From the NCBI RefSeq assembly GCF_000230975.2, contig NC_021172.1, positions 2,790,001-2,854,000 on the forward strand: a stretch of 64,000 nucleotides of DNA. The letters run 5' to 3'. The stretch's first letter is position 1, and each line of letters opens with the position of its first letter. The notes under the pieces are model-generated. The model saw only the letters and a program-made list of their open reading frames with translations, was not told the DNA's origin and made no database searches. Of this stretch, positions 35,554-38,633 are shown one piece after another. The stretch is from Hyphomicrobium denitrificans 1NES1 (lineage in GTDB: Bacteria; Pseudomonadota; Alphaproteobacteria; Rhizobiales; Hyphomicrobiaceae). Made by a program: the position numbers and the translations under genes.

Positions 35554-35628
35554 TGGTGGGCACTAGAGGGATCGAACCTCTGACCCCTACCATGTCAAGG
35601 TAGTGCTCTACCGCTGAGCTAAGTGCCC
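35554..35628 (-). tRNA. tRNA-Val (anticodon GAC)
   Basis: On the minus strand the acceptor arms GGGCACT and AGTGCCC pair perfectly, followed by discriminator A and an encoded CCA. The D-arm is AGCTCAGCGGTAGAGC. The anticodon stem CTACC/GGTAG holds the loop TTGACAT with anticodon GAC. The T-arm is CAGAGGTTCGATCCCTCT. 75 bases including CCA. Confidence 0.97.
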
Positions 35629-36104: not shown

Positions 36105-36370
36105 GGGAACTCTGAAATGAAGCGGAACTTGAACGTAACCGATACTGCACAGTTCGTCTGGCGCAAACTTGGCCCGAGTTTGGTAAACGGAGCATGAAAT
36201 TGTGGAGAGTTGCACCCAAGTCGCGCCTTACGAACTTCGACAGCGCATTTGGCGTTATTGGCCACCAGAGAGATTAAGTCACGCATGGACTTCCCCATCA
36301 CACGTTGGCAGAGTGTCGTTCCTCTGATCGTCAATTTGTCGCGGAAGCAATCGAAGGTACTCTTTCTCGA

Positions 36371-37270
36371 ATGTCCGAAACCCACCTTCACAGCGTGCCG
36401 TCCGCCTTTTTCCCATCCTTCGATGTCCTCCCGCCGCGCGTGCAAACTGCGCCCTTCGTTTTTTCATCGCCGCATTCGGGCCGGCTCTATCCGCCCGAGT
36501 TTGTTGCGATTTCACGGCTCGACCCGAAAACGCTCAGGCGGTCAGAGGACTGTTTCGTCGATAAGCTATTCTGCCCGGTCGCCGAACTGGGTGCGCCGCT
36601 GATCAGCGCCCGATTTCCGCGCGCCTACCTCGATCTCAACCGCGAACCTTACGAGCTTGATCCGGAACTCGTCGGTGAAGATCTTCCTGCGCATGCGAAC
36701 ACACAATCCATTCGTGTGGCCGGCGGCCTCGGGACGGTTGCCAGGATCGTGGCAGACGGTGAAGAAATTTATCCCAACCGACTGAGCCTCGAGAGCGTGC
36801 TCGATCGCATCGAGCAACTTTATTTTCCATTCCACGCCGAGCTGTCGCGACTTATCGCTCAGACCAACGAGATGTTTGGTTATGCGGTGCTGATCGACTG
36901 CCACTCGATGCCGTCGGCTGCGATGGCACCGGGCGGCGCACTACGGCCCGACATCGTGATCGGTGACCGCTTCGGAGCATCTTCCGACCCGCGCCTGACA
37001 CTGCTCGTTCGCAACGAATTTCAGCGGCGAGGTTTCAAGGTGCAACTGAACCGTCCCTATGCGGGCGGCTACATTACCGAACACCATGGACGTCCTGCCC
37101 ACGGTACACATGCGTTGCAGCTCGAGATCAATCGCGGGCTTTACATGAACGAAATGACGTTCGAGCCGAACAATGGCTATACCGCTCTTGCCAAGGCGCT
37201 CGATGAAATCGTCCGCTGTCTTTTTGCAGAAGTGCCGACCTTACTAGATTTTCGCGCTGCAGCGGAGTAA
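36371..37270 (+). CDS. N-formylglutamate amidohydrolase family protein
   Basis: Predicted zinc amidohydrolase that releases formate from N-formylglutamate, or acts on a similar substrate. Motifs are FVFSSPHSGRLYP near residue 27, the metal site region DLNREPYELDPELV near 84, IDCHSMPSAA near 175 and GGYITEHHGRPAHGTHALQLEINR (named in part) near 235. About 299 aa. The ATG at 36371 gives the expected MSETHLH start, although its ribosome binding site is weak. Nothing else of histidine degradation is nearby, so substrate is not certain. Confidence 0.88.
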   Translation: MSETHLHSVPSAFFPSFDVLPPRVQTAPFVFSSPHSGRLYPPEFVAISRLDPKTLRRSEDCFVDKLFCPVAELGAPLISARFPRAYLDLNREPYELDPELVGEDLPAHANTQSIRVAGGLGTVARIVADGEEIYPNRLSLESVLDRIEQLYFPFHAELSRLIAQTNEMFGYAVLIDCHSMPSAAMAPGGALRPDIVIGDRFGASSDPRLTLLVRNEFQRRGFKVQLNRPYAGGYITEHHGRPAHGTHALQLEINRGLYMNEMTFEPNNGYTALAKALDEIVRCLFAEVPTLLDFRAAAE

Positions 37271-37331
37271 GAGCGCTTTAGGGCGCCATACATTAACGGT
37301 CCCGCGAGCCAGCCCACAGCATTAACCGGCC

Positions 37332-37424
37332 AAGAAAAAGGGCCGTCCGATACTCGAACGGCCCAAGTCTAGGGAGGAAACGCCCAAGGAGGGCTGCGAA
37401 GCGCGAGCGAAAGCTCACATATCG
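37332..37424 (-). ncRNA. Small RNA candidate, copy 1 (anti-Shine-Dalgarno type)
   Basis: On the minus strand: a small hairpin GCCC-TCCTT-GGGC, then the single-stranded GTTTCCTCCCTAGACTT, then a strong terminator hairpin GGGCCGTTCGA-GTA-TCGGACGGCCC followed by TTTTTCTT. A candidate promoter (TTGTCC, 17 bases, TATTTT) would start it near 37424, giving about 90 nt. The exposed CCUCCC can pair with ribosome binding sites. The layout resembles the Rhizobiales suhB/mmgR (alpha-r8) RNA family, but I could not compare it with a covariance model. Confidence 0.6.
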
Positions 37425-37533
37425 CACTGCAAAAATAACGATGCATTGCATCATGGACAAATGCGAATTATGCAGAGCTGGAAGCTAAAAAGCGCGGATC
37501 TCGCATAGCTCACGCCGCCGGCCGGACCGGCAT

Positions 37534-37625
37534 AAAGAAAGGCCGTTCGTAAGAACGGCCCAAGTCTAGGGAGGAAACGCCCAAATTGGGCAGCGATTGC
37601 GAAGAAGCGTGTTCACACAACCGCA
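37534..37625 (-). ncRNA. Small RNA candidate, copy 2 (anti-Shine-Dalgarno type)
   Basis: Paralogue of the RNA at 37332, sharing 32 identical bases that span the CCTCCC segment and half of the terminator. Minus-strand order: GCCCAA-ATT-GGGC hairpin, GTTTCCTCCCTAGACTT, terminator stem GGCCGTTC-TTAC-GAACGGCC, then TTTCTTT. The 5' end is an estimate and no clear promoter is seen. The rest of the 37271-37820 gap holds the AT-rich promoter region of the phosphatase gene (37725-37790). Confidence 0.6.
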
Positions 37626-37820
37626 GGGCAAAGATGATCTGCTTCGGCGGCGCTCGCAATCTCCACGAGTATAGCCATAGCGCATTCGCAAATAGATGTA
37701 TCTAGCGCGCCACAACTTAGGTTACTTGGATATAACTGATTTAATATTGTACTTTGTTCCCAATAGATTTGCTCGCCATGTACCATCATAGGCAAGCACT
37801 TGAAAATACAAGGTGAGCGC

Positions 37821-38633
37821 GTGTCCGGGTCGTTGCCCGCAGCAGATTTCCAAGCCATCGTGCGAGTGGCTCATGAACTGGCCGATATTTCGGGCCCGGT
37901 CGTTCTCAAACACTTCCGCAAAGCCTTACCTGTGGAAAACAAGGCCGGCGGCGGCGCATTTGACCCGGTCACGAAGGCCGACAGGGGTGCAGAGAAGGCG
38001 ATTGTCCAAGCCCTTGCAGCGAAAATGCCCAACGACGGAGTTTTCGGCGAGGAGTTCGGTACGAAAGGGGGCGACAGTCCGTACCAGTGGGTCATCGATC
38101 CGATCGACGGGACGAGATCTTTCATCATCGGGTCGCCGCTGTGGGGCACTCTCATCGGCGTGCTGCGAGACGGAAAGCCGTTTTTCGGACTGATGGATCA
38201 GCCGTTTACGGGCGAACGTTTCTGGTCCGGCGACCGCGCATCCTATCACAGCGTCGGTGGCGGCCGGCCGGCACGTCTCAAGACACGCGCGTGTGCAAAT
38301 CTCGCAGATGCGGTGCTGGCGTCGACACATCCGGACCTGTTCGAAAGCGCAGACCAGGCTGCCGTTCTCGACCGCCTCAAAGCGTCCGCGCGGCTGACCC
38401 GATATGGCGGCGACTGCTATAATTATTGCCTGCTTGCGGCAGGGTTCATCGACATCGTGCTCGAACCGGGCCTCAAGCCCTACGATATCGTCGCGCTCAT
38501 TCCGATCATCGAAAGGGCGGGCGGGCGCGTCACGACATGGACGGGCGGCGCCGCGTCGAGCGGCGGCGACATCATCGCATGCGGCGATACCCGTCTGCAC
38601 GAAGCAGTGCTGACGCTGATCAATAAGGCTTAA
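37821..38633 (+). CDS. hisN: Inositol-monophosphatase-family phosphatase, histidinol-phosphatase (HisN) type
   Basis: A Mg-dependent phosphatase of about 270 aa. Metal-binding motifs are GEEFG near residue 74, DPIDGTRSFIIG near 91 and LKPYDIVALIPIIE near 215 (Tyr-Asp in place of the usual Trp-Asp). The segment RYGGDCYNYCLLAAGFIDIV is characteristic of the HisN subgroup, which dephosphorylates histidinol phosphate, rather than of SuhB proper. The GTG at 37821 follows AAGGTGAG. A TTG at 37800 is less likely. The stop overlaps that of the convergent hydrolase gene by four bases. Confidence 0.87.
   Translation: MSGSLPAADFQAIVRVAHELADISGPVVLKHFRKALPVENKAGGGAFDPVTKADRGAEKAIVQALAAKMPNDGVFGEEFGTKGGDSPYQWVIDPIDGTRSFIIGSPLWGTLIGVLRDGKPFFGLMDQPFTGERFWSGDRASYHSVGGGRPARLKTRACANLADAVLASTHPDLFESADQAAVLDRLKASARLTRYGGDCYNYCLLAAGFIDIVLEPGLKPYDIVALIPIIERAGGRVTTWTGGAASSGGDIIACGDTRLHEAVLTLINKA

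Follow-up and report, generated by a model that had tools for sequence, protein, structure and literature searches.

Tandem alpha-r8 small RNA genes of Hyphomicrobium denitrificans share one seed and probably answer to two inputs

Two suhB/mmgR-type genes lie between FGase and an inositol-monophosphatase-family gene

We analysed a 64,000-nucleotide stretch of Hyphomicrobium denitrificans 1NES1 (NC_021172.1, positions 2,790,001 to 2,854,000; hereafter the window, whose numbering is used throughout), in which two small RNA units, copy A and copy B, follow one another on the minus strand between two plus-strand protein genes:

36305..37270, plus strand: FGase (N-formylglutamate amidohydrolase; Pfam PF05013, E 2.6e-75), convergent neighbour and canonical alpha-r8 locus marker
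37800..38633, plus strand: inositol-monophosphatase (IMPase)-family gene (Pfam PF00459, E 2.6e-50), divergent neighbour, start codon uncertain

Both units are suhB/mmgR/alpha-r8 (RF00519) small RNAs. The original prediction had suggested this membership from the arrangement, and the covariance-model search bore it out with 69.4 bits for copy A (37325-37401, minus strand) and 62.3 bits for copy B (37525-37598, minus strand) against a gathering score of 41. These are the only RF00519 matches above the cut-off in the genome (3.81 Mb, single contig), and at the locus the family matches on the minus strand only. The twin minus-strand units described in that prediction were likewise recovered: a direct repeat of 44 nt with 91% identity (37356-37399 and 37553-37596), whose first 32 bases are identical in both units, recurs with a start-to-start distance of 197 nt. 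SorY (RF02651) scored 29.2 and 20.8 bits, below its gathering score of 111. In S. meliloti the AbcR (alpha-r15) locus lies beside lsrB, and the flanking genes here are FGase and the IMPase-family gene. At the level of Rfam, suhB is the best match of both units; cmscan reports only the best of overlapping clan matches and would hide any weaker related match.

Read in small RNA orientation, a divergent IMPase gene is followed by copy B, copy A and a convergent FGase gene in 22/22 genus loci, and the linkage of FGase to copy A, present in all 22, is the usual alpha-r8 location (PMC12559287, section 7). The IMPase gene had been named as the next gene downstream, which holds for the plus strand only; relative to the small RNAs it lies upstream in divergent orientation, and FGase adjoins their 3' ends. 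A tRNA gene lies at 35557-35628 (minus strand) in the window, and a tRNA near FGase was also seen in 17/17 named loci scanned.

The tandem pair is conserved throughout the genus

We examined 22 genus genomes, one per species, and the tandem pair scored above the RF00519 cut-off in every one, that of H. denitrificans 1NES1 included. At least 50 of the 60 relatives searched carry a match above the cut-off, 50 being the count with the weakest matches omitted; among these 60, G029 gave no RF00519 match. In the 13 of 14 Hyphomicrobiaceae genomes analysed, exact-core copies occur as 7 pairs, 3 triples and 3 single copies, one of the singles (G030) having a second above-cut-off RF00519 match nearby. 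The pair was also present in 17/17 named loci scanned (L055 and L056 left out), including that of H. facile DSM 1565, most of which duplicate genus assemblies and are not independent. As all these genomes are related, no count given here is a set of independent events. One genus genome has a third above-cut-off match of 46.4 bits away from its tandem pair (G019:C1:476239-476311, minus strand).

Both copies keep one unpaired core and differ in the SL1 loop and the 5' hairpin

Read on the minus strand, the locus looks like two complete tandem genes, each with its own predicted promoter, 5' hairpin (SL0), small hairpin (SL1), unpaired core and terminator. The RNA parts are as follows:

37395..37426, minus strand: copy A 5' hairpin (SL0), which holds all 3 pairs changed on both sides; 97.0% of SL0 cells paired
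37382..37394, minus strand: copy A SL1, GCCC-UCCUU-GGGC, with an anti-Shine-Dalgarno loop; invariant in 22/22 genus genomes
37365..37381, minus strand: copy A single-stranded core GUUUCCUCCCUAGACUU with seed UUUCCUCCCU; invariant, unpaired in the consensus fold
37332..37364, minus strand: copy A intrinsic terminator and U-tract; folds, and belongs to the RF00519 match
37593..37624, minus strand: copy B 5' hairpin (SL0), which holds all 5 pairs changed on both sides
37579..37591, minus strand: copy B SL1, GCCCA-AUU-UGGGC, loop without the anti-Shine-Dalgarno sequence; UCCUU loop in 0/22 genus copies B
37562..37578, minus strand: copy B single-stranded core, identical to that of copy A
37534..37561, minus strand: copy B terminator with interrupted U-tract UUUCUUU; folds, and belongs to the RF00519 match

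The layout given in the original prediction (small hairpin, unpaired GUUUCCUCCCUAGACUU, terminator hairpin, U-rich end) stands, except that it lacked the further 5' hairpin of each unit. The core and the GCCC/GGGC stems of SL1 are invariant in both copies over the 22 genus genomes. In the consensus folds of both copies the core is unpaired, the seed 10-mer following a weak hairpin, and a few core bases are weakly paired in the single-sequence fold of copy A. Together with the RF00519 matches, these folds support the predicted minus-strand small RNA genes with an anti-Shine-Dalgarno core. Folding-energy z-scores were -3.7 and -4.1, and 0/200 shuffles were equally stable for either unit. Rho-independent terminators are found on the small RNA strand in both copies, and T-runs follow hairpins on the minus strand only.

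The copy A alignment (17 distinct rows) contains 3 pairs changed on both sides, with 98.6% of cells paired; shuffles reached the observed covariation score in 0/500 cases, the number of both-side-changed pairs in 3/500 and the number of pair types in 34/500. For copy B (21 distinct rows), there are 5 such pairs, 98.8% of cells are paired, and the corresponding shuffle counts are 0/500, 4/500 and 5/500. In the copy B alignment that shows the invariant core, the stretches include promoter sequence, as does a longer copy B form that was folded, and the starts of G001, G003 and G020 were placed 39 nt upstream by hand. When the pairing partner was slid along the alignment, pairing fell to 26-59%. 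The compensatory changes thus offer support rather than proof for the predicted 5' hairpins, as the same alignments gave the structures and kinship inflates the controls. By eye, the 5' hairpin sequences of copies A and B seem unrelated.

The SL1 loop separates the copies completely within the genus, UCCUU being present in 22/22 copies A vs 0/22 copies B. Because all single copies from the family and order (n = 6) carry UCCUU or UCCUUU, copy A looks ancestral and copy B derived. Beyond the genus the loops divide the copies less regularly: UCCUU occurs in both copies of G059, UCCUU or UCCUUU in 2/3 copies of G027, and the UCCUU loop is absent from both copies of G022, G035 and G052. The copy B U-tract (37534-37540, minus strand), unlike that of copy A, is interrupted (UUUCUUU or UUCUUU) in 21/22 genus genomes, which might affect Hfq binding or read-through; the copy B terminator hairpin is intact in 22/22.

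Each copy has its own predicted promoter

Upstream of each unit we found conserved promoter-like elements, which differ between the copies in spacing and in the sequence between the hexamers:

37455..37460, minus strand: copy A predicted -35, TTGTCC; TTG with a 17-nt spacer to the -10, position kept in the genus alignment
37442..37450, minus strand: PhaR/AniA-type operator TGCAATGCA (YGCRNYGCR) in the copy A promoter spacer; sequence match, same position in 22/22 genus genomes
37432..37437, minus strand: copy A predicted -10, TATTTT; start near 37425
37423..37431, minus strand: additional YGCRNYGCR box TGCAGTGCG, located at the start site of copy A and overlapping its 5' hairpin; it anchored the box scan, so its count is by construction
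37654..37659, minus strand: copy B predicted -35, TTGCGA; TTG-N20-CAT/CAC/TAA pattern
37637..37653, minus strand: spacer of the copy B promoter, holding the conserved motif CGAAGCAG and no PhaR box; consensus CGAAgc.GC over 33 sequences
37631..37636, minus strand: copy B predicted -10, CATCTT; start near 37624

Measured from predicted start to U-tract, the copy A RNA would span about 37425 to 37332 (94 nt) and the copy B RNA about 37624 to 37534 (91 nt), in agreement with the size near 90 nt anticipated in the original prediction. For copy B, TTG-N20-CAT/CAC/TAA was found in 33/34 first-of-tandem copies with a leader to SL1 of 31-36 nt; the pattern was set after inspecting the sequences, making the 33/34 partly a matter of choice, while the spacer motif lies outside the pattern. 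G052 does not match it, and G059 matches without the spacer motif. As a sigma-70 element, the copy B -10 (CATCTT) fits poorly. A longer copy B of about 130 nt, starting from GATTGCG, was also considered and was displaced by the TTG-N20-CAT spacing, the leader of about 33 nt and the consensus-fold hairpin. The copy A promoter (TTG-N17, AT-rich -10, leader 28-34 nt) matched its pattern at 28/40 loci; among the 12/40 missed, G002, G005 and G013 show these elements on inspection, separated by 16 nt.

A regulon search of 60 genomes, using the family form of the spacer motif of copy B and allowing one mismatch, was uninformative, returning 41 places vs 35 for the reversed control, at least 4 of the 41 being known small RNA loci. 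Two further elements were noted near the promoters. Some 40-60 nt ahead of the copy B -35, visual inspection shows a block TTGTnGCG-N5-GATACA (37697-37715, minus strand) in most of the 22 genus genomes; it may be part of the copy B promoter or serve the divergent inositol-monophosphatase gene. CTGC-N6-CGCA (37462-37475, minus strand), directly upstream of the copy A -35 and similar across the genus alignment, is a possible site for a further regulator.

A PhaR-type operator marks the promoter of copy A

In Sinorhizobium meliloti the PhaR palindrome is built on YGCRNYGCR, the mmgR promoter carries such a site, and purified PhaR efficiently shifts that promoter (PMC12542648). We therefore compared the occurrence of this box upstream of the two copies. 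Within 100 nt upstream of SL1 it is present in 22/22 copies A and 4/22 copies B of the genus, in 16/16 later or single copies and 0/10 first-of-tandem copies of the family, and in 5/5 and 0/2, respectively, of the order; the count covers exact-core copies, so that G057 contributes none and G030 is represented without its weaker second copy. The background is 405/4849 windows of 100 bp (8.4%), to be set beside the 18% of the 4/22 copies B, in which the box lies over the -35 (G007, G010, G012) or in the leader (G006). Near copy B of H. denitrificans 1NES1 itself, no box was found.

In copy A, the spacer box sits between the -35 and -10 in 22/22 genomes and occurs in several sequence versions. 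The nearer box overlaps the 5' hairpin, so that its conservation could be explained in two ways. In genomes beyond the genus the box sometimes lies elsewhere than in the spacer: it was found only at -95 in G031, and only about -30 from SL1 in G044 and G053. The H. denitrificans 1NES1 genome encodes PhaR, phasin and Hfq. We also scanned phasin genes for the box, using the 22 strongest of 37 phasin matches (15/37 left out; L116, L125 and L135 unparsed), and found it within 130 nt upstream of the gene in 19/19 parsed loci, which supports YGCRNYGCR as a probable genuine operator in the genus; a second, weaker phasin gene of H. denitrificans 1NES1 has no box within 130 nt. As judged by these sequence matches, a putative MmgR-type PhaR/AniA promoter operator is carried by copy A only.

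Candidate targets of the shared core

Pairing of the core with ribosome-binding sites is the most likely action of both RNAs, by analogy, because they carry the same 10-mer as Caulobacter SisA. There, the 10-mer pairs with an mRNA leader to repress the message; repression was lost on mutating either partner alone and regained when the two mutations matched (PMC12559287, section 8). We searched full-complement starts and phasin leaders and found no genus-conserved target for either copy. The AGGGAGGAA core complement precedes an ATG at 5 places in the H. denitrificans 1NES1 genome. The full core complement AGGGAGGAAA precedes starts at 15 places in 10/22 genomes, 3 of them being the small RNA loci themselves; G008, which has the closest FGase (90% identity), has zero such starts. 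Only one gene recurs, in 2/22 genomes (G011 and G019): an arsenate-reductase-like gene, named from its translation and identical over its first 70 residues (L106, G019:C1:1093202; L110, G011:C6:89760), which may be a recently shared gene.

In H. denitrificans 1NES1 itself, full core-complement ribosome sites precede a folD-like gene (L104, G000:C1:3336298-3336314) and a cytochrome c-like gene (L101, G000:C1:2548261-2548275), both names coming from reading the translations. The folD leader forms a predicted duplex of -27.4 kcal/mol with copy A; elsewhere in the genus, neither the folD nor the cytochrome c gene was found to be preceded by the full core complement.

Phasin as a direct target of the copy A loop was considered and rejected, the loop complement CCAAGGAG occurring in 1/19 parsed leaders, that of H. 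denitrificans 1NES1 only; genome-wide in that strain, CCAAGGAG precedes 23 starts vs 7 for the reversed-pattern control. Duplexes of 18 phasin leaders with copy A ranked 7 to 36 against a background of 37 open frames of the window that begin with ATG and have uncertain true starts; 16/18 ranked 20th or lower, the best two being 7th and 12th. Because phasin leaders are mostly poor partners of copy A, a link to PHB on the output side is not supported by these predictions. In S. meliloti, the effect of MmgR on phasin may be direct or indirect (PMC8401924).

One seed, two inputs

We hypothesize that the locus provides one seed under two inputs, and consider it probable that copy A is gated by PhaR and PHB and copy B is not. 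The family, the gene layout, the structures, the conserved promoter elements and the difference in the box were obtained by computation. Each copy would be transcribed from its own promoter into an RNA of about 90-95 nt ending at the intrinsic terminator, and, with Hfq, the unpaired UUUCCUCCCU core would pair with Shine-Dalgarno regions of mRNAs and block translation. Copy A, on the FGase side, would be MmgR-like, with PhaR (AniA) repressing through the operator inside its promoter; when PhaR is drawn onto PHB granules, copy A would rise. Copy B would be independent of PhaR and would use the other conserved operator-like motif at the same promoter position. What we infer for Hyphomicrobium is that the RNAs are expressed, that PhaR and Hfq bind and that targets are repressed.

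The core, identical in both copies of all 22 genomes, together with the similar predicted size and layout, would also suit a dosage duplication, in which the same RNA with the same targets and similar control is kept for more seed per cell. We regard this as unlikely, since the promoter spacers differ consistently and are conserved, the SL1 loops differ in 22/22 genomes, and the 5' hairpin sequences look unrelated on visual comparison. If transcription ran past the copy B terminator to give a dimeric RNA processed into two, the locus would be one transcription unit, in keeping with the interrupted copy B U-tract, but conserved promoter elements also precede copy A and the copy B terminator hairpin is intact throughout the genus, so this reading is highly unlikely. 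That the feature is a plus-strand leader or untranslated-region element instead of small RNAs, which the original prediction held out as its refutation, is hardly credible: nothing was found for it beyond the plus-strand AGGGAGGAAA, which resembles a ribosome-binding site, and the RF00519 matches, the predicted promoters and the T-runs after hairpins are all on the minus strand, the strand that Corbino et al. (2005) also chose for the family (PMC1273637).

Distinct target sets, with copy A pairing through the SL1 loop and core and copy B through the core only, are compatible with the two-input model, and the UCCUU loop, in all genus copies A and no copy B, speaks for them. We hold them doubtful, as phasin leaders are mostly poor partners with CCAAGGAG in one of the 19, the few AGGGAGGAAA starts include 3 at small RNA loci and one gene recurring in 2 genomes, and beyond the genus the loop is found in both copies of G059 and in neither of G022, G035 and G052. 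The "overlapping but distinct target sets" first suggested for the pair did not emerge from the analysis: the core is identical across 22/22 genomes, the promoter differs most, and the search gave no genus-conserved target.

Returning to the model of one seed with two inputs, we give about even chances to a broader form of it for the Hyphomicrobiaceae, in which an ancestral PHB-gated riboregulator was duplicated, the promoter stayed in position and the operator between -35 and -10 was exchanged. The seed would then be made either via PhaR, which reports stored carbon, or via a second regulator reading the conserved CGAA(G/C)CAGGC-like spacer motif, which would amount to an OR gate with two inputs that much of the family has retained. 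With the seed frozen and the promoter spacer differing regularly over 22 genomes, the pair offers a clean test of same targets with different inputs vs different targets.

Comparison with known systems

The family and the type of locus are known, and the promoter split between the copies was not found in print. The literature search gave no link of mmgR or RF00519 with Hyphomicrobium, and no description of a PhaR-free tandem sibling was found in the literature searched; the family phylogeny of Lagares et al. (2016) may list tandem copies in this bacterial family. The suhB element of Corbino et al. (2005) lies upstream of a COG0483 (IMPase-like) gene on the opposite strand, like the pair described here, and comes with a promoter and a terminator of its own; genomes commonly contain several copies (PMC1273637), and the word "tandem" is absent from the text of that paper. 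Some alpha-r8 copies have already been reported to be encoded side by side (PMC12559287).

AbcR1/AbcR2 (alpha-r15) of rhizobia are likewise tandem Hfq-binding siblings with unpaired CU-rich anti-Shine-Dalgarno segments (PMC7143759), but they belong to another family, lie beside lsrB and are longer (114-120 nt). SisA-SisD of Caulobacter crescentus are alpha-r8 RNAs whose UUUCCUCCCU core is identical to that of the copies here; SisA is located beside FGase, like our pair, and the Sis siblings share no promoter motif (PMC12559287, section 7). The other three siblings are elsewhere in the Caulobacter genome, unlike the tandem arrangement here, and the text of PMC12559287 does not mention PhaR.

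MmgR of S. meliloti (alpha-r8, RF00519) resembles both copies in core sequence, SL1 and terminator, and it resembles copy A in the PhaR-type palindrome of its promoter; genes for Hfq and PhaR are also present here. MmgR-type regulation further comprises Hfq dependence and activation by NtrC when nitrogen is limiting. MmgR is a single copy of 77 nt (PMC8401924, PMC12559287), whereas H. denitrificans has two, both carrying an additional 5' hairpin and one of them lacking the PhaR box. Under the model, Hyphomicrobium would share with a plant symbiont the circuit formed by MmgR and PhaR.
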